From an uncultured Flavobacteriales bacterium (GTDB lineage: Bacteria; Bacteroidota; Bacteroidia; Flavobacteriales_D; Parvicellaceae): DNA of 64,000 bases. Below the pieces are notes generated by a model. The model was not told where the DNA came from and made no database searches. It was given only the letters and a program-made list of their open reading frames with translations. A program made the position numbers and the translations under genes. This document shows, piece by piece, positions 15,182-51,116 of this stretch (within the stretch, counting starts at the first letter, position 1; each line of letters starts with the position of its first letter). The stretch spans positions 1,488,001 through 1,552,000 of the forward strand of contig CALSRM010000003.1 in assembly GCA_943788755.1 (NCBI GenBank), read 5' to 3'.

Positions 15182-16057
15182 ATGGTAGCAGAAATTGAAG
15201 AGTTTATTAATAAGGTTAAGGACCTAAAGGTCTTAGTAGTTGGAGAAACCATTATTGATGAATTTGTAGAAGTAGAATACCAAGGACAATCAATGAAGTC
15301 ATTCTGTCCTGTGTTTCGATTTACAGGTGCAGAAAAAAAAGTGCAGAATGGTGGTGCAGGGGCTGTTGTTGGACATTTAAAGGACTTTGTAAAGTCTGTT
15401 GAGTTAATTACCAATACGAACGAAGAGATTGTTAAAACTCGTTTTATAGATAGAGATGGAAAAAAGAAACATTTAGAATTGAATAAAATTGATAATTCTG
15501 AATTTGGTGAAATAACGGTGGATGTAACAAAGTATGATGTTGTTATTGTCGCTGATTTTGGACATGGTTTCTGTGATAAAATGAATATCGGAAGTGGCTT
15601 TAATTTAATGTGTCAAACCAACTCTAACAATTTTGGGTTTAACCGTTTGAGTAAATGGAAAAATCACCGTAAACAAAGTATTTGTTTGGATTTAAGAGAG
15701 GCTAGTCTACAAGTAAACGAGAGGTTTGAGACGTGTTCTGATGAAAAAGCTATTGAAATTTACAATTACGAAATTAATTGTGATGATTTATTTGTTACGC
15801 TAGGTGGAAAAGGGGCTTTACTGACAGAAGGAAAGGATATATTTAGACAGGCCGTTTTTAAATCAGCCATTGTTGATACGATTGGTGCTGGCGATACATT
15901 TTTTGCTTTTACATCTTTAATGTCTTCAGTAGATATAGCTCATGAAGATAAATTAATGATACCATCTTTAGCGGCAAGTTTGTCAACAACATGGCTTTGT
16001 AATGAGCAATCTGTTACACGTCAAAAATTAAAAGACTATGCAAATAAACATATATAA
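15182..16057 (+). CDS. PfkB-family sugar kinase, candidate heptose-7-phosphate kinase (HldA-like)
   Basis: 291 residues, ribokinase fold. Near the N-terminus VVGETIIDEFVEV and later NGGAGAVVGHL match substrate-binding parts of the family; the ATP/anion-hole motif GAGDTF is at 235-240 with the catalytic base D238. The segment QTNSNNFGFNRLSKW is characteristic of RfaE/HldE-like kinases. With the SIS isomerase, nucleotidyltransferase, HAD phosphatase and epimerase around it, it most likely phosphorylates C1 of manno-heptose 7-phosphate. The last 20 bases overlap the isomerase gene. Confidence 0.78.
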   Translation: MVAEIEEFINKVKDLKVLVVGETIIDEFVEVEYQGQSMKSFCPVFRFTGAEKKVQNGGAGAVVGHLKDFVKSVELITNTNEEIVKTRFIDRDGKKKHLELNKIDNSEFGEITVDVTKYDVVIVADFGHGFCDKMNIGSGFNLMCQTNSNNFGFNRLSKWKNHRKQSICLDLREASLQVNERFETCSDEKAIEIYNYEINCDDLFVTLGGKGALLTEGKDIFRQAVFKSAIVDTIGAGDTFFAFTSLMSSVDIAHEDKLMIPSLAASLSTTWLCNEQSVTRQKLKDYANKHI

Positions 16058-16559
16058 TAAGTTCTATAATGAGTATTTCGAAGGAGAAGAATTTAAAGAG
16101 TCTTTTTCCAAAGGGATGCAATTATTGGAAAATAGAAAGCGTATCTTTTTTATTGGAAACGGAGGGTCAAATTCTATCTGTTCTCACATGATGGAGGATT
16201 ATGCAAAAATTGCAAGATTTCAATCTTTTACATTTTCTGATCCAGTATTTATTACTTGTTATTCAAACGATTATGGGTATGAGAATGCCATGAAGGAATG
16301 GTTGGAAGTATATTTTGAAAAAGGAGATTTACTGATAGCGATTTCATCATCAGGGAACTCACCTAATATTTTAAATGCAGTGGACAAAGCATACGAAAAA
16401 GGAGGAGATGTTTTGACTTTAAGCGGGTTTAAACCAGATAATAAATTGCGTCAAAAAGGAGATGTTAATTATTTTCTTGAAATAGAGAATTATGGTGTTG
16501 TAGAATGTTTTCATCAAGTAATCTTACATTCTATGTTGGATGAGTATGCTAATAAGTAA
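16038..16559 (+). CDS. SIS-domain phosphosugar isomerase, GmhA-like
   Basis: 173 residues with the sugar isomerase fold: FFIGNGGSNSICSHMMED for phosphate binding, then AISSSGNSPNILNAV. This matches GmhA, which converts sedoheptulose 7-phosphate to D-glycero-D-manno-heptose 7-phosphate, the first step of heptose nucleotide synthesis. It overlaps the kinase by 20 bases, a sign of coupled expression. Length is slightly below the usual ~190 residues. Confidence 0.83.
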   Translation: MQINIYNKFYNEYFEGEEFKESFSKGMQLLENRKRIFFIGNGGSNSICSHMMEDYAKIARFQSFTFSDPVFITCYSNDYGYENAMKEWLEVYFEKGDLLIAISSSGNSPNILNAVDKAYEKGGDVLTLSGFKPDNKLRQKGDVNYFLEIENYGVVECFHQVILHSMLDEYANK

Positions 16560-16608
16560 CATTAATACCCCTTCTAGTGCCTCAGGGCTTTTCAATATAA
16601 TAAATTAA

Positions 16609-17538
16609 ATGCAAAAAGAGATTAATAAAGTTCTTATCACAGGTGTTTGTGGATTCATTGGTTCTAACTTATTGGATTATTTATTTGAAAAAACGAGTTG
16701 GTTAATAGATGGTGTAGATAACCTAAGTACTGGTAATAAAAAGAATATCCAGCATCACTTAAACGATAGTCGGGTTGCTTTTTTTGAAAAGGAATGTAAG
16801 GATTTAACTTCATTAAAAGAATATGACGCTGTTTTTCATTTAGCGGCTTTACCGCGTATTCAGCCTAGTTTTGAAAGAGTAAACGAACATCTAGAAGCTA
16901 ACTTGAATCAAGCAATTCATTTAGTTGAATTAATGATTCAAGATAAATATTACCCAAGGTTAGTATTTAGTGGCTCAAGCGCTATTTACGGAACACCTGA
17001 ACAGATACCAACTCCTGAAACAGAAAAAGTAGATTGTTTGAGTCCGTATGCGTTTCAGAAATACGAATTTGAAAAATATTTAGAACTGATTTCAACACGG
17101 TTTCCTTTGGATTATATTTCTTTGAGGTATTTCAATCCATATGGAAATAGAAGCTTTAATCCAGATAATCCAGATAATGCATACAGTAGTGTGGTTGGGA
17201 TATTTTTAAATCGTAAAAAAGCAGGAAAACAATTATTGGTAACTGGAGATGGTTCACAAAAAAGAGACTTTATTCACGTAGCTGATTTAGCAAAAGCAAA
17301 TTACTTATCTGCAATCCATCCTGAAAAAATTAATACAGCCTTTAATGTTGGTTTGGGAGCTACTTTAAGTGTTTTGGATTTAGCTAAATTGATAGATGGA
17401 GATAATTTTGAGTTTATCGAAAAAAGAGATGGAGAATCTGATATTACATTTGCCGATACAGCAAAGATTAGGGAGGTATTAGGCTGGAAGCCTTCTATGA
17501 ATATTAAAGAATACCTGGAGGGTGAGTTAATAAGTTGA
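16609..17538 (+). CDS. NAD-dependent nucleotide-sugar epimerase
   Basis: 309-residue extended SDR. Cofactor loop GVCGFIGS near residue 11-18; catalytic SSAIYG followed by YAFQK (Tyr-x3-Lys). Overall it looks nearest to GalE/UDP-hexose 4-epimerases. Its place inside the heptose module makes an HldD-like 6-epimerase role possible, but the sequence does not decide this. The next 587 bases are non-coding, so this is the last gene before a break in an otherwise compact operon. Confidence 0.8.
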   Translation: MQKEINKVLITGVCGFIGSNLLDYLFEKTSWLIDGVDNLSTGNKKNIQHHLNDSRVAFFEKECKDLTSLKEYDAVFHLAALPRIQPSFERVNEHLEANLNQAIHLVELMIQDKYYPRLVFSGSSAIYGTPEQIPTPETEKVDCLSPYAFQKYEFEKYLELISTRFPLDYISLRYFNPYGNRSFNPDNPDNAYSSVVGIFLNRKKAGKQLLVTGDGSQKRDFIHVADLAKANYLSAIHPEKINTAFNVGLGATLSVLDLAKLIDGDNFEFIEKRDGESDITFADTAKIREVLGWKPSMNIKEYLEGELIS

Positions 17539-17577
17539 AATCACCATCTAAACCTTAATTTAATAAGTAAATTACTT

Positions 17578-17608
17578 CATACTTTTTTCCTGCGTCAAAA
17601 AAAGTATG
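17578..17608. repeat. Inverted repeat, 11-base arms
   Basis: CATACTTTTTT pairs perfectly with AAAAAAGTATG around a nine-base loop. The hairpin lies 40 bases after the epimerase stop and could act as a terminator on either strand, since each arm ends in a T run in one direction, but it also starts the palindromic block and may be part of a dispersed repeat. Confidence 0.6.
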
Positions 17609-17979
17609 CAAAAAAGGACGCTTACTATGCGGCTGCTTTTGATTCTCAATCACCATCAGCACAAAGCTTAAGTGCGTCCAAATTATCTCTTCGAGCTATT
17701 TGGTCTTACTAAATCTTTTACTTTATGCTTCAACTTAGCGAAGCGATCTCATAAGCGCTAGCGCATAATCGATCAAAAAAGCCCGAATACATTGGTCGGT
17801 TTTTTAATCTCGAATAAAACAAAGAGGATTATGATAGTAGCATAAACCAAACCCGGCCTTCAGAGGAAAGCTGTTGAAGTCAAAATGAATGAATAGAAAG
17901 ACTGGATAGCTTTGAGGAACGAGAAGATCATTCAGCCGCACTTATCATTTATGAAGAGTGAGATAGTTTTTCGCTGGCA

Positions 17980-18015
17980 GCCTTGACTTTTTTACTTCGT
18001 TTTTTGCGTCAAGGC
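17980..18015. repeat. Inverted repeat, 8-base arms
   Basis: GCCTTGAC and GTCAAGGC flank a 20-base T-rich loop, followed by an A run. The second arm shares the core TGCGTCAA with the loop of the first palindrome at 17591, which suggests that the two hairpins derive from related repeat units. Confidence 0.6.
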
Positions 18016-18125
18016 AAAAAATGATGAGCCCGTCCGGCTTGAGGGCAATTACTGATTAAGAGATTATTTAGAAGCTTTTGGAAAAATACCCAAAAAAAGC
18101 CTAAATTTCGCTAACGAAACTAATT

Positions 18126-18536
18126 ATGATAAAAGGATTTGTTTGTGGAGTTTTTGATATGTACCATGCTGGTCATGTGTTAATGTTAAAAGAATGCAAA
18201 GAAAACTGTGATTACCTTATTGTAGCATTGAATAAAGCAGAGAATATTGATTACTCTATAAATCCAAATAAAACAGCACCCCTATATTCGATTCAAGAAA
18301 GAGTTATGATAATGGAGTCTTGTTCTTTCGTTGATGATGTCTTGATATATAATTCTGAAGATGAGCTGCATAGTTTAATGGAGAAGTTAGACTTAGACGT
18401 TAGATTTTTGGGAGATGATTATAAAGGGAAACCCATAACAGGTTCAGAATTAAATATTCCTATTTATTATGCGGATAGGAGCCATGGGTTAAGTACTTCA
18501 AAGTATAAGAAAGCATTATTTGACTTAATGAAGTGA
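18126..18536 (+). CDS. Cytidylyltransferase-like nucleotidyltransferase (TagD/HldC-like)
   Basis: 136 residues. The adenylyl/cytidylyltransferase signature is present: GVFDMYHAGHV near residues 8-18 with HAGH for HxGH, and a C-terminal GLSTSKYKK in place of the ISTT block. Small enzymes of this type activate glycerol 3-phosphate or heptose 1-phosphate. With GmhA-, HldA- and GmhB-like genes beside it, heptose 1-phosphate is the likelier substrate; the TagD alternative cannot be excluded. It ends overlapping the phosphatase gene by one base. Confidence 0.8.
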   Translation: MIKGFVCGVFDMYHAGHVLMLKECKENCDYLIVALNKAENIDYSINPNKTAPLYSIQERVMIMESCSFVDDVLIYNSEDELHSLMEKLDLDVRFLGDDYKGKPITGSELNIPIYYADRSHGLSTSKYKKALFDLMK

Positions 18537-19084
18537 TGATGAATCAGAGGTTACTGGAGAAATGGAACGTAGATGAATCGTGGACTTTATTTTTAGATAG
18601 AGACGGCGTTATCAATCAGGAAACTTTTGAAAATTATATAACAAGTCCAGCTAAATTCATCTTTTTGGAAGATGTTTTAGTGGCTTTGAAAAGTTTGTCA
18701 TCAACATTTAATAGAGTTATTATTGTCACAAATCAACAAGGAGTTGGGAAAGGTTTAATGTCTGAAAATGATTTAAATACTGTGAATAGCTTTATGATTG
18801 AAGAAGTTGAAAAAGTAGGAGCCAGAATCGATGCGGTATATTGTGCTACAGAACTTCGAGGAACTGTTAATGGATTGCGGAAACCTGCTAGAGGTTTGGC
18901 TGATTTGGCGAAATCGGATTATCCCGAACTTAATTATGAAAAATCGATTATGGTTGGGAATTCTGAATCGGATATAGTTTTTGGAAAAAATTTAGGAATG
19001 AAGACTGTTTTTATTGGAGAAAGCCAAGCGCACGATGCTTTGTTAACGTATCCAAGTTTGTTTAAGTTTGCGGAAGCTTTATAA
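18536..19084 (+). CDS. HAD-IIIA phosphatase, GmhB-like
   Basis: About 182 residues, HAD fold with the nucleophile motif LDRDGVIN and ITNQQG-like second motif (VTNQQGVGKG), then RKPARG and VGNSESDI for motifs III and IV. GmhB removes the C7 phosphate from heptose bisphosphate. The zinc-binding cysteines usually seen before RKP are absent: the region reads CATELRGTVNGLRKP. Three starts are adjacent (GTG 18533, ATG 18536, ATG 18539); 18536 gives the TGATG overlap usual in this locus and is preferred. Confidence 0.82.
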   Translation: MMNQRLLEKWNVDESWTLFLDRDGVINQETFENYITSPAKFIFLEDVLVALKSLSSTFNRVIIVTNQQGVGKGLMSENDLNTVNSFMIEEVEKVGARIDAVYCATELRGTVNGLRKPARGLADLAKSDYPELNYEKSIMVGNSESDIVFGKNLGMKTVFIGESQAHDALLTYPSLFKFAEAL

Positions 19085-20959: not shown

Positions 20960-23626
20960 ATGAAAAAATATTTATTAAATATTCTGAGAAAATTAATGGC
21001 CTTTTTAAAAGCCATTAAACGTCTGTTTTCTAAAAAGAATTTATTACGCTTTTTGGTTTTTATTCTTTTGTTGTTGTGCCTATTGTATCAAGTGGATTCA
21101 GTCTATGTTCTTTTTAGAAATAAGGTTAATACTCGAATTGTAAATTATACAGGAGTTGATTTACTTTCTGGGGTAGATGAAATAGCTAATGCCTTAGATA
21201 TTGTGGGAGGGATTAAGGCAATACAAAAACCCGTTGAAGAAAGTGATTATATTGATCTCTATTTTTCAGACTCTTCTAAGAGAAATTTAGATAAATATCT
21301 AACGATCAGTCCGGTAAAAAAGAAGTGGGTTAAAGCTGAAATAGATATAGATGATAAAAAATACCAGTGTAAAATAAAATATCATGGAACCGATGATGCT
21401 CATTATATCAATGGGAAATATTCCTACACAATAAAATTAAAGAATATAACAGGGTATTATCAAAATGCTAAGCGTTATAAATTAATTAAAGGAGAAGAAG
21501 CGGAACCAACCATTTTTGCTGCTAATCATTTGGCACATGAAATGGGTCTTATAGCGCCCGTTGGTAGCATGAAAATGTTAAGGATAAACGGAGCTGAAGT
21601 TGGACATTATTATTTTACAGAAGATGTTAAGAAAGGATACCTAGAACGAAAATTTGGAATATCAAATTATGCCGTTTTAGCCAATGTGAGTGACTGGACT
21701 AGAAAAGAAAGAGCTGTTCTGGGGACTCCGCATATTAGCGATTTAGATTTGTATAAAGAACATGTCGAATCAGACGACGCATTATTACACAGCAAAGGAA
21801 TTGAAGTCTATGGAACCCTATGTGAGCTGATTACTGAACATAATGTTGATGAGTTAGTAAAATATTTTGATGCTGAGTATATGGGGAAGTTTATGGCATT
21901 AGCGTCTTTATTTAATGATGTCCATTTTATTACGGGAGATAATTTGAAATTGATATATGATTTTAATAGAGGGAAATTTTATCCTGTATATAGAGCTGAA
22001 CACGCATGGAGACCATTAAATAATGAGGTGGTTATTTCCGAAGGAAGAACAATCAATAAATACCCTGATTATAATAAAATATTGTTTGAGTCATTTCCAT
22101 TGTACAGAGCATCAATGAATACAAATCTATTTAAATTATTATTAAGTAATAACAAAGTAAGAGAAGCAAGAGATAAAGTGTTATTTAAATTGGTTTCTAA
22201 TAAGAATAATATAATCCATAGTGTTTCAAAAACCCATTCTGAAAATGAGCGTGTGATGTTAAATGCTGATGTATGTCGAAAACCCTATAGAATAAAGAAA
22301 AATGATCAAATTAATTTTGTTTCATCTATGCTACGAATGTCATCTCAGTATCTGCATTATAATCATGTCTATGGTAGTTATGATAGTTTGGGTAATAAAC
22401 TGACTGTAGTGAATGATGGATTTTGCAATGTTAAAATTGTAAGGAAATCTGATTTAATTGATGTAGGAGTCGCTCCTGGAATTGGAATGAGTAGTAATCT
22501 AGATTTTCAATATGGAAGAAGTAATTTTGCTATCGTTGATACAATTTTTAATGCCAAGAACTATTACTTTATTAATACGGTGACGAAAGATACTATTTCA
22601 AAAAAACACATTCATTTTAATTTTATAGATAAATCAGGTGTAATTAAGGCGAAAAATACACTTGAAATGCTAAATACAAACAATATAGATTTTGTTCTAG
22701 ATTCAAATACATTAATGATAAAGACCGGAAACTACTCTGTGTGTTCTGATATTATATTTTCAGACAATTATAGTGTAGTTATTGAAAAAGGAGTAGAGTT
22801 TTCAATTAGCTCGGGTAAAACAGTTTTGTTTCATTCTAACCTATCCGTGAATGGAACGGAAGAATCTCCGGTAATTGTTCGAAAAAAAGATACGACTGCT
22901 TATGGAACATTTGCAATCGTTGGTGGGCACTGTACTCCCATAGTGGAGATAGATTATTTACAAGTTTCAGGTGGTGGAGAAGCCTATTTGCAAGGTTTAC
23001 TGTTTACAGGGCAATTTGCGATTTATAATGCTAATGTATCGATAAATAATTCTTCATTTGTTCATAGCTCTGGAGATGATGGCTTGAACCTAAAATACTG
23101 TAAAGCGAAACTAAATAACTGTTCATTTGAGTACAATAAAGCAGATCAGGTAGACTTGGATTTTTGCTGGGCAAAAGTTGAGAGTTGTAGTTTTTCTCCA
23201 TCACAATTAGATCCCAACGGAGATGGGTTAGATGTTAGCGGGAGTCACGCAAGTGTCAGCCATTGTAAATTCCAAGGGTTTGTTGATAAGGGAGTTAGTG
23301 TAGGGGAGAATTCTACAATTTGCTTGTTGTCAAATAGTTTTTACAATAACAGAAGTGCTATTACAATTAAGGATCAATCAGAGGCTTATGCTTGGGAAAA
23401 CAAATTTTCAAATAACGAGTTTGACTATTCATTATTTATAAAGAAAATGATTTTTAATAAACCTGTATTATTCATGGAGAAAGCTTCAAGAGAGTACATA
23501 ATTGATAATATTACTGGTGAGGTGAAAGAATTGGAAAAGAATGACTTAGGCCTAATCTATGAGGCTTTTTTAGAATCTTACGAAAAATATAATTCTGAAG
23601 GAGCCTTAACGAAGCTGGCACAATAA
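20960..23626 (+). CDS. Membrane-anchored CotH-family protein with C-terminal beta-helix
   Basis: 888 residues. A basic N-terminus is followed by one membrane segment (about residues 29-45), placing the rest outside the cytoplasm. Residues 130-360 resemble the CotH spore-coat kinase fold: KIKYHGTDDAH, YYFTEDVKKGY and GDNLKLIYDF; the usual YDxD metal motif is replaced by VYRAEHAW. Residues 600-830 form a right-handed parallel beta-helix with short Asn-rich turns (DDGLNLKYCKAKLNNCSFEY), as in carbohydrate-binding proteins. A second protein of the same layout follows two genes later. A role as an envelope glycan-modifying or glycan-binding enzyme is inferred. It replaces a glycosyltransferase pattern and is preceded by a 78-base gap. 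Confidence 0.78.
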   Translation: MKKYLLNILRKLMAFLKAIKRLFSKKNLLRFLVFILLLLCLLYQVDSVYVLFRNKVNTRIVNYTGVDLLSGVDEIANALDIVGGIKAIQKPVEESDYIDLYFSDSSKRNLDKYLTISPVKKKWVKAEIDIDDKKYQCKIKYHGTDDAHYINGKYSYTIKLKNITGYYQNAKRYKLIKGEEAEPTIFAANHLAHEMGLIAPVGSMKMLRINGAEVGHYYFTEDVKKGYLERKFGISNYAVLANVSDWTRKERAVLGTPHISDLDLYKEHVESDDALLHSKGIEVYGTLCELITEHNVDELVKYFDAEYMGKFMALASLFNDVHFITGDNLKLIYDFNRGKFYPVYRAEHAWRPLNNEVVISEGRTINKYPDYNKILFESFPLYRASMNTNLFKLLLSNNKVREARDKVLFKLVSNKNNIIHSVSKTHSENERVMLNADVCRKPYRIKKNDQINFVSSMLRMSSQYLHYNHVYGSYDSLGNKLTVVNDGFCNVKIVRKSDLIDVGVAPGIGMSSNLDFQYGRSNFAIVDTIFNAKNYYFINTVTKDTISKKHIHFNFIDKSGVIKAKNTLEMLNTNNIDFVLDSNTLMIKTGNYSVCSDIIFSDNYSVVIEKGVEFSISSGKTVLFHSNLSVNGTEESPVIVRKKDTTAYGTFAIVGGHCTPIVEIDYLQVSGGGEAYLQGLLFTGQFAIYNANVSINNSSFVHSSGDDGLNLKYCKAKLNNCSFEYNKADQVDLDFCWAKVESCSFSPSQLDPNGDGLDVSGSHASVSHCKFQGFVDKGVSVGENSTICLLSNSFYNNRSAITIKDQSEAYAWENKFSNNEFDYSLFIKKMIFNKPVLFMEKASREYIIDNITGEVKELEKNDLGLIYEAFLESYEKYNSEGALTKLAQ

Positions 23627-23651
23627 CGTATAATTTTAGCTGACGCATATT

Positions 23652-24881
23652 TTGAAAGATAGAATCCTGATAATATCTTATGTATACCCTCCATCAACAG
23701 GTATTGGGGGGAGAAGGTGGAGTAAGTTTGCTAAGTATCTCAATAAATCAGGGAGCGATATCTATTTACTAACACTTAAACCTGATAGGGAAGCTGTTAA
23801 TCGTCTAAATGAATATGACTCTATAAAAAGTGTATCTCACTTAAAAAATGTTTACCCCAAAGTTTTAGGAACCCAGCCAAATAGTGTTTTCGAGAAAGTA
23901 AAATATAAAATAGCTCTGCTATTTGTTCAAGTTTTTTCAAAGGGGAACTATTACGATAGAAGTGTGTTCTTCAAAAACCAATTTCTTAATGAGGCGACAA
24001 ATCTGATTGAGAAGCATAATATAGAAAAGGTAATTATTACTGGAGCTCCTTTTAGAATGTTATATTACGGAGTGTTATTGAAAAAGAAACATAATATTAG
24101 GTTGTTATCGGATATTCGAGATCCTTGGACTTGGGGAGCGGGATACGGAATGAAATTATTATCTAAAAGAAGAAAAGAAAAGGAGTTGTTTTATGAAAAA
24201 CAAGTTTTAATTGATTCAGATGTTGTGACCGTTCCGGTTGCTCCAATGTTGGGTCATTTACAAAATGTATATTCCAAACAAGCAAGTAAAATTAAGTTGC
24301 TTTCTCATGCTTATGATTTGGATGATTTTGAGATTGGCAATGCGACCCGAAAACTCGGTGATAGTTATAGATTGGTGTATGGAGGGACTACATACAGGAA
24401 CCTGGAGGAAGAATATGATGCTCTTTATGAATTGTGTAAGTCAAGTGACAACGTAGATTTTAATATTCAAATCCATACCAATAAATTTCAGTATTTGAAT
24501 AATGACAAGAAAGGTGAGATAAAGAGTAAGTTAGAAATTAGTCCTTATATTACTCCAAGTGAAATAAATACAAAAATTAAAAATGCTGATGCTTATTTAT
24601 TGATTTTCCCGGATGAGGTAAAAGATTTCATAACAACTAAATTTTACGAGATTATCTATTGCCAAACACCCATAATTTTTGTTGGTGCAAAAGGAGTTGT
24701 AAGTGAATTTATTGTTGAAAACGGCTTGGGTGTCCATATTTCACCTTGTAACCTTAAGGAGGAGTTAAATGAAATACTTTCGGGACATAAAAGTATTTCA
24801 TTTAATAAGAATTTCTCTGTAGAGGATTATAGTTTTGAAAAAGTGACTGATATTCTAGTTTCACTCTTGGAAAAAGAGTAA
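23652..24881 (+). CDS. Family 4 glycosyltransferase
   Basis: 409 residues with an N-terminal IISYVYPPSTGIGGRRW loop typical of GT4 enzymes and a C-terminal donor domain (LVYGGTTYRNLEEE, then KFYEIIYCQTPIIFVG in the acceptor/donor switch region). Start is TTG at 23652. It lies between the two CotH/beta-helix genes. Donor unknown. Confidence 0.82.
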   Translation: MKDRILIISYVYPPSTGIGGRRWSKFAKYLNKSGSDIYLLTLKPDREAVNRLNEYDSIKSVSHLKNVYPKVLGTQPNSVFEKVKYKIALLFVQVFSKGNYYDRSVFFKNQFLNEATNLIEKHNIEKVIITGAPFRMLYYGVLLKKKHNIRLLSDIRDPWTWGAGYGMKLLSKRRKEKELFYEKQVLIDSDVVTVPVAPMLGHLQNVYSKQASKIKLLSHAYDLDDFEIGNATRKLGDSYRLVYGGTTYRNLEEEYDALYELCKSSDNVDFNIQIHTNKFQYLNNDKKGEIKSKLEISPYITPSEINTKIKNADAYLLIFPDEVKDFITTKFYEIIYCQTPIIFVGAKGVVSEFIVENGLGVHISPCNLKEELNEILSGHKSISFNKNFSVEDYSFEKVTDILVSLLEKE

Positions 24882-24989
24882 TTATCGTTTTTATATGTTT
24901 GTAGGGGGTTCTATTAAGGTTAAAATACCTGAAAAATGGTTATCATTGTATGATTGTTAAATTTATAGATACAGTCGATTAAAAGCGAA

Positions 24990-27521
24990 ATGCGTAAAAA
25001 CTTATTTAAAATAGGAATATATTTTATGTTAATTGCTTGTGGATATATGATTCACAAAACAGGAATTATAAATAGAGTATACCAAAAATATTTAAATTCA
25101 ATTGAGTCTGAAGAGTATAAGGAACATGTTGAGTTATCAAAGAATTCGAATCCTAAGTCGATTGAGCTTATTATTCCAGACAGTAATTTAAACACCTTAA
25201 ATGATCAACGAAGATTGGCTCTGGAATTAGGGCCTTATTATCAAAATGACCCAAGATTCACAGGTTATGTAAAAGGTAAATTGGTACATGGGAACGATAC
25301 CATGAAAATTAAATTAAGGTTAAAGGGTTTATTTCCCGATCATTATGCAGATTCTTTAAAGTGTTCGTATAAAATTAAAATCAAAGGAAGCAAAACCTTT
25401 AATGGGATGAAGAAATTTGCAATTCAACATCCTAAAACAAGAGAGTATCTAAATGAATGGTATTTGCATCGACTATTCGATTATGTAGATATAACTTATT
25501 TAAGATATAAATTTATTAATGTAACTATCAATGGAAGAAACTCAGGGATTTATGCATTGGAAGAAAATATGCATAAAAACTTAGTCGAAAATAACCAAAT
25601 GAAAGAAGGTCCCATTTTCCGTTTTAGTATTGAAGATGGTGCTGGCCCAATGTTTTGCAGACCATTAAAACCATATGGTAGAGGACGTTTAAAATCTGAT
25701 AGCTCTCTTTTGTTGCAGTACCAGTATGCCGAGATGTTGATGTATGAATTTAGGGATGGACATAAAAAAACTTCAGAAATTTTTGACGTAGAAAAGATGT
25801 CAAAATTTTTAGCACTGATAGACTTAACTGGACATCATCATGCATCTCATCCTCACAATTTGAAGTTTTATTTTAATCCTGTGACTAGTCTTATAGAGCC
25901 CGTAGGTTATGATAACTCAAGTCTTCTTCCCTTAGAAAATCAGGGTTTGTTGGGAAATGTGAAAAATGTAAAAGCACCTATTCGAAATAGAGGAGAGGTT
26001 CAATGGAAAAATGATCCATTGAGCGAACAGCTTTTTAATGATTCAATATTTTTTAATTCCTATATGCATTATTTAACCGAGTATTCTAATAAAGAATGGT
26101 TAACCTCTTTTTTTTCAAAGTATAATGAAAGTGCCCAAGAACAATTACAGACAATTTGGAGATCGTATCCCGAGTATGATTTTTTAGGAAAGGAAATTCT
26201 TTTTCATAATCAAGAGATAATCCGGAATAACTTAGAATTATGTATTGAGCCCGTTATTAAAGATGATTTGATTGTTAACGAAAATGGGGAAGCTGAACTG
26301 AAATTTAGAAACCCAAATTCATTACCATTAGAGCTGCTCTCTGTTAAAGTAAATAGTAAAGTATACACTCTTGAAAACCTATTTTTAGAATCAAGTTATA
26401 ATAGAGAAAGACAGCAATTTACTTCTATATCGATAGAGGAAGTTTTTGAGGATACAGTTAATGTGCAGTTGGAGTATAAAATTTTTGGAGTGGATAGGGT
26501 ACACATATTTGATTATGAATGTACAACTGAAAATAGAATAAGCACTGATGTCTCTAAAGTACCTGCGTTAAATAATTTTAGTGATTTGTCATCTTTAAAA
26601 GCGCTTGTTATTGAGGATGGAAATATAGATTTTACCAAAGGAGAATATTTATTCGATAGTGATATTATTATTCCTTCTGGTTATGTGGTTAAACTAAATC
26701 CTGGAGTAAGAATTAATTTGGTAAATGGAGCTAAGTTCATTTCTCAATCTCCATTTATAGCTGAAGGACTTGAAAATGATAGTATTCATTTTTATTCTAC
26801 GGATAAAACAGGAGAAGGAATTTTTATTTTGAAAACGGCGGAACAATCTAAATTTGAGTATTGCAGGTTTAGTGGTTTGTCAAATTTAATAGATGCGCCA
26901 TGGAAACTTTCTGGAGCAGTGAATTTTTACAATGCTGAAGTATTAATGAATCATTGTTTGCTTAGCTCTAATCTTAGAGGTGACGATATGTTAAATATCA
27001 TGAATTCTAATTTTGAAATAAATAATTGTGTTTTCATAAAAGTTTTAGCTGATGCTTTTGATGGAGATTTTGCAATTGGAAAAATAGTAAATTGTGAGTT
27101 TGAAATGATTGGAAATGATGCTATGGATTTCTCAGGAAGTAATATTACCATTGAATCATGTAGAATCTCTGATGTAGAAGATAAGGCATTAAGTGCTGGA
27201 GAGAAGAGTGTTGTTGATATAAAAAGTTTAGTAATTCGTAATAGTGCAATAGCTATTACTGCAAAGGATAAGTCGATGATAAAAGGTGAAAATATTACCA
27301 TCTCAGGTGCAGATATTGGAATTAGTGCATTTCAAAAGAAATCCCAGTTTGGGTCTGGAACGATAGAATTAGCAGGTTGTAAGTTTAGTCAGGTTAAAAT
27401 AGAAAACATGATTGAAGAGGGAAGCCTACTTTTATTAAATGGAATTGAAATAAAAGGAGAATATGCTGATGTTGAAGATCTTCTTTATGGCAGCGTATAT
27501 GGTAAAATCACTATTAAGTAA
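24990..27521 (+). CDS. CotH-family protein with C-terminal beta-helix, probable lipoprotein
   Basis: 843 residues. The N-terminus reads as a short signal with lipobox-like LIAC (Cys17), so the protein may be lipid-anchored; an uncleaved membrane anchor is the alternative. Residues 90-320 match the CotH fold: KLRLKGLFPDHY, YALEENMHKNL, HPHNLKFYFNP and PVGYDNSS, the last fitting the YDxD-type metal site better than in the paralogue at 21.0 kb. Residues 545-800 are a beta-helix region with repeated NC/DC turns (NNCVFIKV, VNCEFEMI, IESCRISD). A 108-base gap precedes it. Confidence 0.8.
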   Translation: MRKNLFKIGIYFMLIACGYMIHKTGIINRVYQKYLNSIESEEYKEHVELSKNSNPKSIELIIPDSNLNTLNDQRRLALELGPYYQNDPRFTGYVKGKLVHGNDTMKIKLRLKGLFPDHYADSLKCSYKIKIKGSKTFNGMKKFAIQHPKTREYLNEWYLHRLFDYVDITYLRYKFINVTINGRNSGIYALEENMHKNLVENNQMKEGPIFRFSIEDGAGPMFCRPLKPYGRGRLKSDSSLLLQYQYAEMLMYEFRDGHKKTSEIFDVEKMSKFLALIDLTGHHHASHPHNLKFYFNPVTSLIEPVGYDNSSLLPLENQGLLGNVKNVKAPIRNRGEVQWKNDPLSEQLFNDSIFFNSYMHYLTEYSNKEWLTSFFSKYNESAQEQLQTIWRSYPEYDFLGKEILFHNQEIIRNNLELCIEPVIKDDLIVNENGEAELKFRNPNSLPLELLSVKVNSKVYTLENLFLESSYNRERQQFTSISIEEVFEDTVNVQLEYKIFGVDRVHIFDYECTTENRISTDVSKVPALNNFSDLSSLKALVIEDGNIDFTKGEYLFDSDIIIPSGYVVKLNPGVRINLVNGAKFISQSPFIAEGLENDSIHFYSTDKTGEGIFILKTAEQSKFEYCRFSGLSNLIDAPWKLSGAVNFYNAEVLMNHCLLSSNLRGDDMLNIMNSNFEINNCVFIKVLADAFDGDFAIGKIVNCEFEMIGNDAMDFSGSNITIESCRISDVEDKALSAGEKSVVDIKSLVIRNSAIAITAKDKSMIKGENITISGADIGISAFQKKSQFGSGTIELAGCKFSQVKIENMIEEGSLLLLNGIEIKGEYADVEDLLYGSVYGKITIK

Positions 27522-27527: not shown

Positions 27528-28610
27528 ATGAAAAAAATATACATCCTAATAGGAACTCGTCCCAATTTTATCAAAGTGACTCGATTCAAAGAATTAGGGG
27601 AGGCAAAAGGAATGGAGATTAAAATTATCCATACGGGTCAGCATTTTGATGCGAACATGGCGGATGTGTTTTTTACACAATTTGGATTACAACCGGATTA
27701 TTTTTTAAATGTGGGGGGACAAACTCCGAATTCACAAATAGCTAATATTATTTTAAAATTAGAAGAGCTTTTCAACGAAAAGGGAAAACCCGATTTGTTT
27801 ATCGTCCCAGGAGATGTTAATTCAACAATGGCAGGAGGAATTGCAGCTAATAAATTAGGAGTCACATTGGCACATTTAGAAAGTGGATTGCGATCGTATG
27901 ATAAAAAAATGCCAGAAGAGCACAATCGAATTATTACGGATAACCTTTCTGATATTTGTTTTGTAACAGAACCATCAGGAGTTGAGAATTTAAAAAATGA
28001 AAATATAGCAGCTAAGGTTGAATATGTTGGTAATACAATGATCGACACGCTAGTGCATTTTGAGCCACAAATTGAAGCAAGTGATGTGTTGGAAAGATAC
28101 GGAGTGGAGAAAGGAAATTATCACTTACTGACTTTTCATCGACCATCCAATGTAGATAGTATAGAAGAATTACAAGTATTGATTGACATCATTAAAACGG
28201 TAGCTAAATTTGGTAAAATGGTTTTGCCTTTACATCCGCGTACTCGAAATAAATTGAACGATTTTGGGTTACTTGCAGAATTGGAAAATATGAATGATTT
28301 GATCCTTACAGGACCAATTGGTTATTTTGAATTTCAAAAACTAATAAAATATGCTAAGGTTGTTCTAACAGATAGTGGAGGAATACAAGAGGAAACTACT
28401 TTTAGACAAGTACCTTGTCTGACTTTACGAGAAAATACAGAAAGACCCGTCACGATTACAGAGGGCACTAATACTTTGGTTCCTATAAATGCTGTTGCAG
28501 TGCAAAAGCATTTGAAATTAATAGAAAGTGGTAATTATAAAAAAGGATCTGTTCCTTATCTATGGGATGGAAAAGCCACAGAACGAATTTTAGATATAGT
28601 TAGTGTTTAA
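27528..28610 (+). CDS. wecB: UDP-N-acetylglucosamine 2-epimerase (non-hydrolysing)
   Basis: 360 residues, usual WecB length. It opens with IYILIGTRPNFIK, has HTGQHFD, HLESGLRSYD and PEEHNR, and ends with TDSGGIQEE, all marks of the non-hydrolysing epimerase that interconverts UDP-GlcNAc and UDP-ManNAc. It would supply ManNAc-type donors for the glycan. It starts six bases after the CotH gene and overlaps the next gene by one base. Confidence 0.93.
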   Translation: MKKIYILIGTRPNFIKVTRFKELGEAKGMEIKIIHTGQHFDANMADVFFTQFGLQPDYFLNVGGQTPNSQIANIILKLEELFNEKGKPDLFIVPGDVNSTMAGGIAANKLGVTLAHLESGLRSYDKKMPEEHNRIITDNLSDICFVTEPSGVENLKNENIAAKVEYVGNTMIDTLVHFEPQIEASDVLERYGVEKGNYHLLTFHRPSNVDSIEELQVLIDIIKTVAKFGKMVLPLHPRTRNKLNDFGLLAELENMNDLILTGPIGYFEFQKLIKYAKVVLTDSGGIQEETTFRQVPCLTLRENTERPVTITEGTNTLVPINAVAVQKHLKLIESGNYKKGSVPYLWDGKATERILDIVSV

Positions 28611-30861: not shown

Positions 30862-32008
30862 TAAAAGTCAATATAGCGTTTATTTGCCTGGGCTAAATGC
30901 AATGCGGTTTTTTGCAGCTTTCTTGGTTATTGTAACCCATATTGAATTGTTAAAGGGACAATTGGGTTTTTCGAATTCATTGAAATTCCTCGAACAATTT
31001 AATCTAGGAGGATTGGGTGTGTATTTCTTTTTTGTGTTGAGTGGATTTTTAATCACCTATTTATTAATTCATGAAAAGGAAAAAACGGGAACTATTAAAA
31101 TAAAGGCTTTTTATATAAGGCGGTTGTTGAGAATTTGGCCACTTTACTATTTTATAACATTACTGGCTTTCTTCATCTTGCCTAATTTCGAAATGATGGA
31201 GGTGCCTTGGTTACAGCAATTTTATCATTCCAATTTTACAGTGAATCTGGTTTTGTTCTTATTGATGCTTCCGAACCTTGCCTTGGCCTTAAATCCTGCT
31301 GTTGCTCATGCAGGTCAACTATGGTCTATAGGGGTAGAAGAACAGTTTTATTTAATCTGGCCAGTACTATTTAAACGGACAAATAATTTATTACGCTTGT
31401 TAATTCTATTATTTGTTGTTGTTGTAGGAATAAAAGTATTGTTTATACTCCTTTTAAATTCGAATACAATTCCTTCTTCTGAGAACATGTTGGCTTTAAA
31501 AAAGTTTATGGCAATGAGTAAGTTTGAATGCATGATAATAGGAGCTTTTGGTGCTTATGGGGTGAAATATAATTCAAAGAAGATGTTAAGTATAGTGTAT
31601 CATCCAATTGTATTTGGTATTTCTTTATTGTCGTTACCATTAATGAATTATTTTTCTCCTGAAATATTGAATGACGCGATTCACCTACCTTATTCTGTGA
31701 TGTTTATCGTAATTATTCTAAACGTGTCAACCAATAACAAAGGGCTTATGTTATTAGAAAATAAATTCTTTAATTTTTTAGGAAAAATATCTTACGGGCT
31801 GTACATGTATCATATGATGATTGTTGTTTTTGTGATACAAATGGTGGCAAAAATTCATGGAGAAATAGGAGTGAGGGAAAATATTTTAATTTATTTTTGT
31901 TCAGTAGGTTTAAGTATATTAGTAGCTTGGCTATCTTATGAATATTTTGAGAAGCTTTTTTTAAAGTTAAAACCCAAATTTACAATTGTTAAAAGCGGAA
32001 AAATATAG
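30854..32008 (+). CDS. Acyltransferase 3 family membrane protein (OafA-like)
   Basis: 384 residues with about ten hydrophobic segments. The N-terminal GLNAMRFFAAFLVIVTH and later FFVLSGFLITYLL and GQLWSIGVEEQFYLIWP are typical of acyltransferase 3 enzymes that O-acetylate lipopolysaccharide or capsule at the inner membrane. The tail overlaps the next gene by 23 bases. Confidence 0.9.
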   Translation: MTDKSQYSVYLPGLNAMRFFAAFLVIVTHIELLKGQLGFSNSLKFLEQFNLGGLGVYFFFVLSGFLITYLLIHEKEKTGTIKIKAFYIRRLLRIWPLYYFITLLAFFILPNFEMMEVPWLQQFYHSNFTVNLVLFLLMLPNLALALNPAVAHAGQLWSIGVEEQFYLIWPVLFKRTNNLLRLLILLFVVVVGIKVLFILLLNSNTIPSSENMLALKKFMAMSKFECMIIGAFGAYGVKYNSKKMLSIVYHPIVFGISLLSLPLMNYFSPEILNDAIHLPYSVMFIVIILNVSTNNKGLMLLENKFFNFLGKISYGLYMYHMMIVVFVIQMVAKIHGEIGVRENILIYFCSVGLSILVAWLSYEYFEKLFLKLKPKFTIVKSGKI

Positions 32009-33298
32009 ATATTCTCCAGTTTCAGTTCGAATTGAAAAAGTAATTTTTTTAACACTTTTCACATCCGCTTTTGTTTTTTTTAAAACCCCTTTTGAATTTT
32101 ATTTTCACTATATTATATTTTTAGCTTTACTACCTTTTTTCATGTTAAAATACCGGTTTCCAAAACTGGCATTTCAAATAATGACAATTCCTTTAATAGT
32201 AGGAGTGGTTAATGTGTTGGGAGAGAATACCGATCAATTTTCCTTCATTAAAGTATTTGGAGGTTTATTGCTTACCCTACTTTTTTATCAATATGTAATG
32301 CTTTATTATGAATTTAATGTGAAGCGTTTGTTTAAAATGTATGTTAAATGGTGCTACTGGATAGCTTTAATTGGCATAGTGCAGCAAGTTTCTTATATAA
32401 TTGGGTTTAAATTGGGTTATGATTATAGCTGGCTATTCAATAAATGGGGAGTTATCCCTGGCGGTATATTAGGATTGCGGGTAAATTCGATTATTTCAGA
32501 ACCCTCAGGTCTAGCAATTGTGCTGATGCCAGCGGTGTATGTGGCTATTTATAATTTATTCAGAAAGGAAACTTATATTATCGATAAAAAACAGTCGTTA
32601 GTAATTTTGTTGGTATTGATATTAACCTCCTCTTCTACAGGGTTAATTGGGCTTGTTGTAGCGTTTATGTTAGCCTCAGACACATTGAATATTCGGTATG
32701 TAGTAATAGGTGTTGCAATATCGATAAGTGGTGGGTATGCAGCGTATTATAACCTAGATGAATTTCGCTCAAGAGTAGATACTTCAATTGGGTTATGGAT
32801 AGAAAATGATTTTGATATTAAAAATACAAATTCATCAAGTTTTGTTCTTTATAATAACTTACATGTTGCAATGGAGAACTTAAAAGAACACCCCATTTTT
32901 GGAACTGGTTGGGTTCTCATGAGTCTGCTTATGAAAAGTATTCGTTAACCAATACAGTTGTCCTATATGATTTTTCTTTTAATACGAAAGATGGAAATTC
33001 ATTGTTAATTCGATTGTTGTCCGAGACAGGTTTGTTAGGTGCTTGTTTTATCTTATTAATCTTGTTTAGGTCTTTTGTGCATAAAAATCAGAATAGCGAA
33101 TTGAACGAATATCGAATCGTAAGCCAAGGACTTTTTATTCTGATATTTGTTACTTTATTGCGGCAAGGAAACTACATGTTAAATGGGTTTCCGCTGATAA
33201 TGTTGATGTATTATTACACAAAGAAGGAATATATCAAAAGGAAAAATGAGTTACTTCAGTTAGAAGCTGATACTGGAGGAATAGAAGAAACCAATTAA
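31986..33298 (+). CDS. O-antigen polymerase/ligase-like membrane protein (frame interrupted)
   Basis: Two overlapping frames (31986-32948 and 32909-33298) form one polytopic protein of about 435 residues. The break lies near 32909-32915: correcting one base gives GTGWGSHESAYEKY, the periplasmic motif typical of Wzy/WaaL-family proteins. Hydrophobic segments cover most of the chain, with a polar loop around residues 255-330. TTG at 31986 is the start; no nearer ATG preserves the first membrane segment. It probably polymerises the repeat unit, though ligase versus polymerase cannot be told. A homologue with an intact frame would confirm a sequencing error. Confidence 0.78.
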
Positions 33299-33299
33299 C

Positions 33300-34357
33300 T
33301 TGAAAAAAAGAGCTCTTATACTATACACCGAGATTGCAGGTTATACGATAACCTGTATAAATAAAACAATTGACCTTTATCCTGATGTAGAATTTTATGT
33401 TGTTCGATGGCCAGTAAACAAAGAGGCTCCTTTTAAATTTGAATTAAATAGCGCTTATATTTATGAAAGAAATGACTTTACCAATGAGCAGTTGCTAGAA
33501 TTGGCGAATACAATTAATCCTGATCTAATTATTTCATCGGGATGGATGGATAAAGGCTATGTAAATGTTTGTAAGCATTATAAAGGAAAGTAAAAACGGT
33601 GTTGGCTTAGATAATCATTGGTTTGGGAGATGCTAGACAAAAAATCGCAACTTTACTAAGTTCCTTTATAGTCAAAAATAAATTCTCTCATGTCTGGGTG
33701 CCTGGAAAACCACAACGTCAATTTGCTAAAAAATTAGGTTATAAGTCTTCAGAAATATCAGAAGGATTTTATTCTGCGGATGTGGACTTGTTTTCGTCCT
33801 ATTTTGAAAAGGCGAAAGAAAGTAAGATTAGTAATTTCCCTAAACGTTTTATTTACGTAGGAAGATATGTAAAACATAAGGGGATATTTGATATGTGGAA
33901 TGCTTTTATTGAATTACAAAAAGAACATCCAAATGATTGGGAATTATGGTGTATTGGGACTGGGGATGAATTCGAAAATAAGATAGAACACGATAAGATT
34001 AAACATTTTGGCTTTGTTCAGCCAGAAAATTTTTTAGAATACATTGAAAAAACAGGAGTATATATATTGCCAAGTCATATAGAACCTTGGGGTGTTTCTC
34101 TGCATGAATATGCTGCAGCCGGTTTTCCTGTGATTTGTAGTAATAAAGTTGGATCATCAGAAAAGTTTATACAAGAAGGCAAGAATGGTTATGTTTTTCC
34201 AGCAAGAGATATAGAAGCAATTAAAGATTCTTTTCGCAAAGTAATCGATTCTTCAGAAAATGAGCTATTAGAGATGCAGAAAAAAAGTATTGAGTTATCT
34301 TTGTTAACTACTCCCGCCAAATGGGCAAATACATTAATTAAATTACTCAATGATTAA
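33300..34357 (+). CDS. Family 4 glycosyltransferase (frame interrupted)
   Basis: The first part (TTG start at 33300, to 33593) gives an N-terminal Rossmann domain (LILYTEIAGYT, IISSGWMDKGY); the second, from about 33623, gives FIYVGRYVKHKGIFDMW and PSHIEPWGVSLHEYAAAGFPVICS, the GT4 donor domain. Bridging needs more than one shift between about 33590 and 33622; with shifts applied the link reads VLALDNHWFGDAR. The intact protein would be about 350 residues. No initiating ATG is near the second part, so it is not a separate gene. Confidence 0.8.
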
Positions 34358-35595: not shown

Positions 35596-37477
35596 ATGTG
35601 CGGAATAAACGGAATATATAATATTTCAAAATTAAATTCTCCTCTCCAAGAGATGGAGAAGATGATCGCTAAGCAAAACCATCGTGGTCCGGATGCTTCT
35701 GGTACTTATGTCAATGATTTTGTTGCTTTTGGACACAGTCGGCTATCCATCATTGATTTAGAAGCTTCTTCTAATCAGCCATTTTATAGTTCAGACAACA
35801 AGTTTATACTCATCTTTAATGGCGAAATTTACAACTATAAAGAAATAAGAGAAAGTTTACCAGATTATCACTTTAGAACGAACTCTGACACTGAAGTTGT
35901 TTTAGCTGCTTACCAAACATGGGGAACGAATTGTGTTCATCAATTTAATGGGATGTTTGCATTTGCTATTTGGGATGTTGAAAAACGAACTCTATTTATA
36001 GCAAGAGATAGGTTAGGTATAAAGCCACTTTACATTTATGATAATAATGAAAGTATTGTATTTTCTTCTGAGATAAGAAGTTTAATGGAATGCTCATTAG
36101 TAAAGAAGAAAATTGACAAGGATTCCTTTGTCGATTATTTACGATACAATACGGTGCACGCGCCAAAAACTATAATAGAAGGAGTTAAGATGCTTATGCC
36201 AGGTCATTACATCTGGGTTAGTGACGATGAATATAAAAACGAAGCCGTATTGGGATATTAATAAATATATTAACCGAAAATCAGACAATCAGTCTTACGA
36301 AGAAATTAAGATTGAAGTAAAAGACCGATTAACTAAATCGGTTAAAAGAAGGTTGGTAGCAGATGTTCCATTTGGTGCATTTTTAAGCGGTGGGATAGAT
36401 TCCAGTGCTATCGTTGCATTGATGAGTGAAGTAAGTGATGAGCCTGTGAAAACATTCAATATATCTTTTGCAGAGGAAGCGTTTTCTGAAGCAAAATATG
36501 CTCGGATTATTGCAAAGAAATATAAAACAGATCACACTGAAATTAAATTAACTCCAGCAGATTTTTTAGCAGACCTTCCAAGCGCATTATCGGGAATGGA
36601 TCACCCAAGTGGTGATGGACCCAATTCATTTGTTGTTTCAAAAGCGACAAAGGATGCTGGAGTTACAATGGCGCTATCTGGGTTGGGAGGTGATGAATTA
36701 TTTGCTGGTTATGATATTTTCCTCAGAGCCGTCTCCTTATTGGATAAAAAGTGGGTTTATTCCTTTCCTATAGGGATTAGAAGATTAATGGGGAAAGCAT
36801 TAAAAATTGTAAAACCCACAATAGCTTCAGATAAAATAGTTGAAACGATAACTCAAAAATATTTAGAGCTTCCGTTTTATTACCCAATTAATCGGCAAGT
36901 TTTAAATGATGAACTGATCTCTAAACTAACAGGAATTGGAATTCTTCCCGAAAATGCAGTTTATAGAATTGGTCTTAATAGCATAGATGTGAACGCCCCT
37001 GGCTTTAAATCACCGTTTTTAAGCAAAGTTTCCTATATGGAAATGAATACTTACATGCAAAATGTATTGTTGAGAGATACTGATCAAATGAGTATGGCGC
37101 ACTCTCTTGAGGTAAGAGTTCCTTTTTTAGATCACGAGTTGGTCGAATATGTTTATGGTGTTGCTGATGAACACAAATTCCCCTATTCTCCAAAGAAATT
37201 ATTGGTAGATAGTTTGGGTGATTTATTACCAAAGGAAATTGTAAATAGACCCAAAATGGGGTTCACTTTTCCATGGGAACAGTGGATGAAAAATGAATTA
37301 AAGGATTTCTGTATTAAGAACTTAACCAATCTTGTTGATAGAGAGTTGTTAGACAAGAAACACTTGTGGGATATGTGGGATAGGTTTTTAAAAGGAGATA
37401 AAAAAGCTACTTGGTCTCGTTTATGGGCTTTGGTAGTTCTTGGGTTTTGGTTGGAAGAGAATGAAGTTGAAGTATAA
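35596..37477 (+). CDS. Asparagine synthase-like amidotransferase, second copy (frame interrupted)
   Basis: The N-terminal glutaminase part (35596-36261) begins MCGINGIYN with Cys2 and contains HRGPDASG; the C-terminal part (about 36221-37477) has the ATP loop FLSGGIDSS and SGLGGDELFAGYD. A single shift at the A5 run 36235-36239 restores EYKTKPYWDINKY and a ~627-residue enzyme. Only about a third of the length is shared in detail with the copy at 12.3 kb, so the two probably serve different acceptors. Likely amidates a sugar acid of the glycan; an asparagine-making role is possible. Confidence 0.85.
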
Positions 37478-37499: not shown

Positions 37500-38054
37500 A
37501 TGCAAAAAACTGATTTAAGTAAATTTGATAACTCTTGGTACAATCCTGGAGGTCTTTTTAAAAGAGGCGTATGGTTTTTTGTGAATGTTTGTGTTATGCA
37601 AAACAGAATGAATCCATTCAATGGGTTACGTGTTTTTTTTCTTAAAATATTTGGCGCTAAATTAGGTAGTGGAGTTGTTATAAAACCAAATGTGAATATT
37701 AAATATCCATGGAAATTGGAAATTGGAAATAACGTTTGGATTGGTGAACAAGTTTGGATTGACAACTTAGGAGAAGTTAAAATTGGAGATAACGTTTGTT
37801 TATCGCAAGGAGCCATGTTATTATGTGGAAATCATAATTATAAAAAAGTTGAGTTTGATCTGGTAGTGGGGGATATCACTTTAGAAGAAGGTGTTTGGAT
37901 TGGCGCTCATTCAGTAGTTTGCCCCGGAGTTAGTTGTAAATCTCATTCTATATTATCGGTAAACTCTGTTGCAGTAAAAACACTAGAGCCATATACTATT
38001 TATCAAGGTAATCCAGCTGTAGAACTTCGTAAAAGAGAATTTAAGGACGAATGA
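37500..38054 (+). CDS. WcaF-like hexapeptide acetyltransferase
   Basis: 184 residues. After an N-terminal helical region (FKRGVWFFVNVCVMQNRMNP) come hexapeptide repeats (IGNNVWIGEQVWI, IGDNVCLSQGAM) and the His of GNHNY, as in colanic acid acetyltransferase WcaF and its relatives. The ending YQGNPAVELRKREF is typical. It overlaps the next transferase by four bases, and such WcaF-GT pairs are common in capsule loci. Confidence 0.88.
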   Translation: MQKTDLSKFDNSWYNPGGLFKRGVWFFVNVCVMQNRMNPFNGLRVFFLKIFGAKLGSGVVIKPNVNIKYPWKLEIGNNVWIGEQVWIDNLGEVKIGDNVCLSQGAMLLCGNHNYKKVEFDLVVGDITLEEGVWIGAHSVVCPGVSCKSHSILSVNSVAVKTLEPYTIYQGNPAVELRKREFKDE

Positions 38055-38831
38055 AAGTTAGTCTTATTACCATAGCTTATAATAGTGCAGAAACAATAGA
38101 AGACACTATTAAGTCTATTGTTGCGCAGGATTACTCCAATATAGAATATATTATTATAGATGGAGGTTCCACTGATAATACGCTTTCTATTATAGATAAA
38201 TTCAAAGATTCAATAACAACTATTATTTCAGAACCTGACAAGGGAATTTATGATGCAATGAATAAAGGTGTTCAAAATGCCACTGGCGATATTGTAGGGA
38301 TATTAAATTCAGATGACATTTACGCTGATAATAAGGTTGTTTCGCGCATTGTAGAAGCAATTGGAAATAAAGATTCTATCTATGCGGATTTAGTGTATGT
38401 GAATAGAGACAATACGGATAAGGTAACTCGTTATTGGAAATCTGGTAAATATAGAAAGGGAATCTTTAAAAAGGGGTGGATGCCACCGCACCCGACTTTT
38501 TTTATAAAGAAATCATGTTATGATCAATACGGAACTTATAATTTACAGATTAAAGTCAGCAGCGGATTATGAACTGATGTTACGAATGCTTCATAAACAT
38601 AATATCTCTGTTGCTTATTTACCAGAAGTAATTACTAAAATGAGAGTTGGTGGTCAAAGTAATGTTACGCTATTGAATAGGTTCAAGGCTAATAAAGAGG
38701 ACAGACTAGCATGGTCTATAAATGATTTGAAACCAGGGCCATTAACGCTTATAATGAAGCCCATTCGAAAGATTAGTCAGTTTTTTAAGAAGGGGAAAAA
38801 AGTGCATAGTTTACGAAACTTTTCAGGTTAG
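38051..38831 (+). CDS. Family 2 glycosyltransferase, WcaE/WcaA-like (frame interrupted)
   Basis: N-terminal part: SLITIAYNSAETIEDTI, IIIDGGSTDNT and LNSDDIYAD, a full GT-A core with its DxD. The C-terminal part continues in another frame with SAADYELMLRMLHKHN. One extra base near 38545-38556 explains the break, giving about 260 residues. It is the last gene of the plus-strand glycan locus and its 3' end overlaps the convergent PD40 gene by nine bases. Confidence 0.85.
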
Positions 38832-50900: not shown

Positions 50901-51116
50901 AGAAATAATTTCGAAAGATCGGGTCATTTTTATATTCCAGATAAAGTTATTTCGAAAGGTTTGCATGCAATTGTTATTGATTATAAAACAGGAAAACCCT
51001 TAACAAAGCATACTTTACAAATAACGGAGTATGGAAATCTGTTAGAAGAAATGGGATATACGCATATCGAAAAGTATTTACTTTATATTAATGATTTAAA
51101 AATAGTGACTGTATAA
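47990..51116 (+). CDS. AddA-like UvrD/Rep helicase-nuclease (frame interrupted)
   Basis: Inferred product about 1,040 residues. The N-terminus holds the Walker A loop SSAGSGKTYTL (near residue 11-21), later DEFQDTSSLQW for the Walker B region, VGDAKQAIYRWRNGD for motif III and TIHKSKGLQFPVVI for motif V; the C-terminal end has IVIDYKTGKP, the nuclease active site. At least five shifts (about 48215, 48490, 48700, 49900, 50935) break the frame. The stop TAA overlaps the next ATG by one base. Partner of the addB-like gene at 43-45 kb. Confidence 0.85.

Follow-up and report, generated by a model that had tools for sequence, protein, structure and literature searches.

Diverged CotH-fold proteins with C-terminal beta-helices in a strain-variable glycan locus of an uncultured Flavobacteriales bacterium

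Two large proteins, P1 and P2, encoded close together in a glycan locus whose middle part varies among members of the genus, combine an N-terminal hydrophobic helix, a CotH-fold domain that has lost a defining catalytic aspartate of CotH and a C-terminal right-handed beta-helix (Table 1). The reading that accounts best for these features, offered tentatively, is that P1 and P2 are membrane-anchored, outward-facing modifiers of the locus glycan or of a protein attached to it. It builds on the fold, the domain order, the residue changes and the strain-variable place of the genes, from which we infer the extracytoplasmic side, the glycan as substrate and catalysis. Under this proposal, P1 and P2 would act on the exported glycan, or on a protein carried with it; the beta-helix would hold the chain and probably process it through an invariant ladder of Asp, Lys, Ser and Glu residues. 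The CotH half would be a domain of phosphotransferase type that has diverged but retains a nucleotide site's lysine, glutamate and asparagine and, in P2, also the metal-binding Asp. Replacement of the catalytic Asp might then reflect altered chemistry or an altered donor, or a binding or regulatory pseudokinase.

Organization of the gene pair and its glycan locus

The window, meaning the whole stretch of 64,000 nucleotides analysed here (contig CALSRM010000003.1, positions 1,488,001 to 1,552,000), contains P1 and P2 as intact open reading frames, as the first-pass annotation had placed them. That annotation described the two as separated only by a GT4 gene; a single gene does lie between them, but its match to Pfam Glyco_transf_4 (E = 0.0095) falls below the cut-off. 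It also proposed a membrane or lipid anchor for both proteins. Each N-terminus carries one hydrophobic helix, as expected of a membrane-anchored protein whose remainder is predicted to be extracytoplasmic, whereas a lipid anchor is unsupported for P1, and L088, a close relative of P2, has no cysteine at that place. A promoter and terminator scan around the pair gave a signal no stronger than that of shuffled sequence.

Table 1. Features of the gene pair and of a third CotH-like protein, in window coordinates
Feature	Position	Strand	Remarks
P1	20960..23626	+	888 aa; N-terminal TM helix, divergent CotH-like domain, C-terminal right-handed beta-helix
P1 CotH-like domain, residues ~95-430	21242..22249	+	Z 22.4 to 5jd9; low-confidence model
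P1 active-site segment	21923..22000	+	H322 ... N328 ... R345-A346-E347; D228 and D251 equivalents absent
P1 beta-helix, residues ~575-848	22682..23503	+	33/51 family-conserved positions kept
Glycosyltransferase-like gene between P1 and P2	23652..24881	+	GT4-type match below cut-off
P2	24990..27521	+	843 aa; N-terminal TM helix, CotH-fold domain, beta-sandwich-like middle, C-terminal beta-helix
P2 CotH-fold domain, residues ~54-416	25149..26237	+	Z 27.9 to 5jd9
P2 active-site segment	25839..25913	+	H284-A285 ... N290 ... D308; D228 equivalent lost, N and D251 equivalent kept
P2 beta-helix, residues ~540-826	26607..27467	+	AlgG/AlgE4/polygalacturonase-like fold; invariant D/K/S/E ladder, residues 666-786
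UDP-GlcNAc 2-epimerase gene	27528..28610	+	Directly 3' of P2
P3	46376..47551	+	391 aa, no beta-helix; CotH 9.5e-10, 38.9 bits against cut-off 23.8; outside the glycan locus

The surrounding locus is long and contains pseudaminic/nonulosonic-acid-type, heptose-type, glycosyltransferase, Wzy and asparagine-synthase-like genes, several of these names having been read from the sequence. Within it, genes for a PfkB kinase, a SIS isomerase, a NAD epimerase, a cytidylyltransferase and a HAD phosphatase (15182-19084) form what looks like a nucleotide-heptose pathway, and this group is syntenic in L067, a locus that has a P1-type gene. In the window, at least six genes (31986-32948, 33623-34357, 35596-37477, 38051-38572, 42796-45325 and 48717-51003) are shorter than, or split relative to, intact orthologues of about 88-95% identity in the congener G003, which suggests assembly indel errors and not real pseudogenes.

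Comparison of the locus within the genus provides the strongest evidence for a link to the glycan. Among three congeners, most of the conserved flanking genes of the locus are 85-99% identical between the window and G002 and G003, and the middle is variable: the window has P1 and P2 there, G002 a canonical CotH with the motifs N-Q-D...N and N-D-L-D, and G003 no CotH. The UDP-GlcNAc 2-epimerase gene next to P2 has a 96% identical copy in the G003 locus, which itself lacks P1 and P2. Since the flanks are conserved and the CotH content between them is swapped, P1 and P2 belong to the portion of the locus that is polymer-specific and exchangeable, and travel with it. Their placement in a glycan locus by the first-pass annotation is borne out.

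That annotation further raised association with wzy-type loci in other genomes, which holds within the Flavobacteriales and applies to a minority of loci in the family at large. Among 39 Flavobacteriales genomes that encode both a P2-type protein and a homologue of the window GT4 gene (33623), the two genes lie within 10 kb of each other in six, including the window. Leaving out the window, five pairs were found against 0.39 expected (P ~5e-5); these come from three families, with three pairs from a single family, so that the independent events are fewer. One of these five other P2-type glycan loci has an identifiable O-antigen ligase/Wzy gene. The five also encode a second, canonical-type CotH nearby, Pfam-checked in three of them, and L079 and L081, the two in which the site was inspected, have the canonical residues. 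L088 is likewise located in a glycan locus. Across the wider P2 family, two or more glycan genes occur nearby in only 4 of 77 loci; the CotH-beta-helix genes of the same genus in G001-G003 lie outside glycan loci, as do most P1-type proteins.

CotH-fold domains of P1 and P2

By predicted fold and Pfam profile, P1 and P2 are members of the CotH superfamily, and the CotH-like fold and C-terminal beta-helix that the first-pass annotation assigned to them are confirmed, less securely for P1, by profiles and structure models. P2 matches Pfam CotH (PF08757) at E = 6.1e-10 with 39.5 bits, above the cut-off of 23.8, whereas P1 reaches E = 0.0022 with 18 bits and remains below it. A PF08757 scan of the whole genome returned seven places, comprising P1 (the weakest of the seven), P2, P3 and four ordinary ones outside the window. 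Among P2-type CotH domains generally, 43 of 44 match PF08757 at E = 0.001. The P2 model is of high quality (pLDDT 89.5, pTM 0.85) and superimposes on Bacillus cereus CotH (5jd9) with a Z score of 27.9 and an rmsd of 2.8 over 318 aligned residues. The P1 model has an overall pLDDT of 65.4, being confident in the beta-helix and poor in the rest; its N-terminal domain matches 5jd9 with Z 22.4 and rmsd 3.5 over 308 residues, a value limited by the weakness of the model, for which the alignment consisted mostly of P2-type sequences and contained no P1-type relatives.

Single-sequence searches of the PDB with P1 and P2 gave nothing useful, CotH being reached by profile only: a profile of P2-type CotH domains found 5jd9 nearly end to end at E = 2.1e-9. 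Independently of the P1 model, hhalign argues for homology of the P1-type domain to the P2-type CotH domain, aligning a stand-alone P1-type relative with the P2-type profile at E = 1.6e-9 and a second relative at 4.6e-7. NCBIfam assigned no family to P1, P2, P3 or their relatives.

P3, a third CotH-like protein of the window, was missed by the earlier annotation. Its gene stands between a gene for a TPR-like protein and one of helicase/exonuclease type, and it is absent from the same place in G003.

The C-terminal beta-helix

The beta-helix of P1 matches Pfam Beta_helix above the cut-off (2.4e-7) and that of P2 falls just below it (1e-5). Among 42 beta-helix members of the family, 29 match PF13229 and 17 match Pect-lyase_RHGA_epim. 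The modelled P2 beta-helix resembles AlgG (Z ~26) and, more broadly, AlgG, AlgE4, polygalacturonases and RbmB (Z 22-27); the P1 beta-helix is modelled as right-handed and also matches folds of polysaccharide enzymes. Sequence searches against solved structures in the PDB gave no strong match for the beta-helix (best E = 0.14). Seventeen columns are invariant in an alignment of 42 relatives, most of them Asp, Lys, Ser, Glu or Gly, and the resulting Asp/Lys/Ser/Glu ladder has the appearance of a site for ligand binding or catalysis; it is peculiar to this family, and none of the known catalytic motifs was recognized in it. In the aligned sequences, P1 is conserved more strongly in its beta-helix than in its CotH part, keeping 33 of 51 near-invariant positions in the former against 17 of 59 in the latter. 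In a tree of the beta-helices, the P1 branch (3.73) is too long for placement.

Active-site residues and the question of catalysis

The CotH motif N-x-D228-x4-N ... W-D251-x-D, in Bacillus subtilis numbering, has a spacing that was confirmed on the 5jd9 sequence. D228Q CotH is inactive, and D251A is likewise described as catalytically inactive (PMC7821199). The equivalent of D228 is absent from both P1 and P2. In the P2 family, this column holds Ala, Gly or Ser in most members, directly preceded by an almost invariant His (position 284, in 73 of 74); hhalign offers an alternative in which this His itself aligns with D228, and the Asp is gone under either alignment. N290 and D308 of P2 and its relatives retain the spacing of the CotH Asn and D251, and D308, the D251 equivalent, is found in 73 of the 74 members. 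The CotH-site lysine and glutamate are preserved too: every member has E192, and most have the K124 equivalent. Within the main family, the four residues K124, E192, N290 and D308 hardly vary, whether in bacteria or in archaeal bins. In P1-type proteins the D228 place is occupied by Phe or His, and the D251 register, A346 flanked by R345 and E347 in P1, is Ala or Ile. The His, Asn, Arg and Glu of the P1 segment are invariant in all seven P1-type proteins; because the R-x-E is conserved in all of them, the site is a distinct one and not the product of random decay.

The earlier observation that the metal-site residues differ between the two proteins (VYRAEHAW in P1 against GYDNSS in P2) describes a true difference. 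The suggestion drawn from it, that one protein is catalytic and the other dead, was rejected: the D228 equivalent is missing from each of them, and the P1 site, with its R-x-E, is conserved in its own subfamily.

An alternative, unlikely in our judgement, is that the beta-helix is the sole enzyme, a lyase, hydrolase or epimerase-like protein acting on the chain, with the CotH half serving as a scaffold or as a pseudokinase that binds nucleotide, phosphate or polyphosphate. Several observations point in this direction: nearly all members have lost the D228 equivalent, P1 has no in-register D251 either, the P1 beta-helix is more strongly conserved, and 562-567 aa lipoproteins with a beta-helix and a CotH remnant occur beside VTC and DUF4956 genes. 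A scaffold, however, need not keep residues as nearly invariant as K124, E192, N290 and D308, and there are P1-type proteins, as well as L087 and L088, that have no beta-helix at all.

It is quite improbable that P1 and P2 both function as CotH-type kinases with the glycan or a surface glycoprotein as their phosphorylation target, along the lines proposed in the first-pass annotation. Beyond the fold, this proposal can draw on the retained Lys, Glu and Asn (in P2 also the D251 equivalent) and on canonical CotH proteins with both Asp residues, found in the G002 locus and beside P2-type proteins in related glycan loci. ATP is generally not expected beyond the inner membrane, which counts against it. 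The Asp missing from P1 and P2 is the one whose D228Q replacement abolishes CotH activity (PMC7821199), 73 of 74 P2-family sequences having a His at position 284, and P1 additionally lacks D251. A fold match to CotH is not by itself a demonstration of function; ordinary CotH kinase activity of P1 and P2 is unproven and doubtful, and the proteins are not to be called CotH kinases because a defining catalytic residue is missing. Modification of the glycan or of a protein carried with it by a diverged CotH half and a beta-helix stays the preferred reading.

Distribution of the family and its usual neighbours

P1 and P2 belong to a large and apparently undescribed family. One pattern scan retrieved 301 relatives of P2 (at least 301 loci) from Bacteroidota, KSB1, Planctomycetota, Poribacteria and others, together with a few archaeal bins that may be misassigned. 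CotH-beta-helix genes L098, L100, L106 and L148 stand on contigs binned as Nanohalarchaeota, Woesearchaeota and Pacearchaeota, indicating gene transfer or misbinning. The two closest relatives of P2 (53 and 47% identity) have no beta-helix. Outside the window, full-strength matches to the P1 N-terminal domain come from six genomes within its taxonomic family, as stand-alone proteins of ~490-546 aa (one cut by a contig end); its fusion to a beta-helix was seen in the window only.

Genes for DUF4956 and VTC (polyphosphate-polymerase-like) proteins, rather than for glycan synthesis, are the usual neighbours of the P2 family. A DUF4956 gene is present in 55 of 77 loci, mostly directly before the P2-type gene, and a VTC gene in 42, mostly directly after it; one or both occur in 61. 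A third neighbour cluster (16 of the 77 loci) resembles calcineurin-like phosphoesterases. In three loci (L187:5184-8811, L188:4245-7920 and L186:4827-8454), a lipoprotein of 562-565 aa, its beta-helix intact and its CotH domain reduced to a remnant, precedes VTC, DUF4956 and an inorganic pyrophosphatase that starts like a lipoprotein, a group that is possibly a polyphosphate/pyrophosphate module.

These frequencies (DUF4956 in 55 and VTC in 42 of 77 loci), and the pyrophosphatase lipoprotein adjoining the degenerate CotH form, would suit a general extracytoplasmic phosphate or polyphosphate module of VTC, DUF4956, CotH-beta-helix and metallophosphatase or pyrophosphatase proteins, the glycan locus merely collecting mobile genes. 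For P1 and P2 this account has a low probability: neither VTC nor DUF4956 lies beside them, the genome's own VTC-DUF4956 pair is on another contig (G000:C4:71727-73134), and placement in glycan loci recurs in other families. More speculative still would be a new class of extracytoplasmic phosphotransferase, nucleotidyltransferase or other transferase, with His in place of the CotH Asp, a beta-helix that presents the polysaccharide and perhaps polyphosphate or another non-ATP donor. If true, it would amount to a bacterial kinase-like machine for glycans, found in surface-polymer loci and in VTC/DUF4956 cassettes of many phyla.

Relation to known systems

The family joins a CotH fold to the fold of polysaccharide enzymes at 301 or more loci, with the catalytic Asp replaced in nearly all members, and bears on the role of secreted CotH-fold proteins outside spores and on the source of the phosphate they would use. 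The exchange of P1 and P2 between strains of a genus as glycan-locus cargo makes the question testable. A literature search found no paper joining a CotH kinase with polysaccharide and a beta-helix, and its single match for CotH with a parallel beta-helix concerns the fungus Cryptococcus.

With the CotH spore-coat kinase (PF08757; 5jd9/5jda, Bacillus cereus), P1 and P2 share the fold and the lysine, glutamate and asparagine, and P2 also the D251 Asp. Unlike that kinase, they lack the D228 Asp and show an invariant His there or in the adjoining position, P1 has no in-register D251, and both carry a fused beta-helix and a TM anchor. The AlgG/AlgE4 epimerases, polygalacturonases and the RbmB lyase share the right-handed beta-helix (Z 22-27), and some family members match Pect-lyase_RHGA_epim, but the sequence match is marginal (best E = 0.14) and the ladder distinct.

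In Gram-positive bacteria, a cassette of CotH, polyphosphate polymerase and DUF4956 genes lies beside Pel loci (PMC7112168). In Streptococcus intermedius, Pel level and aggregation changed when the Pel-cluster CotH gene, or its MgtC-like neighbour, was deleted; this CotH has an FN3 domain and no beta-helix (PMC12345266). The window differs from the Pel cassette in having no VTC or DUF4956 gene next to P1 and P2, and a beta-helix instead of FN3. Like that cassette, it ties a secreted CotH-fold protein to a polysaccharide locus, and DUF4956 and VTC genes are partners of the P2 family at large as well.
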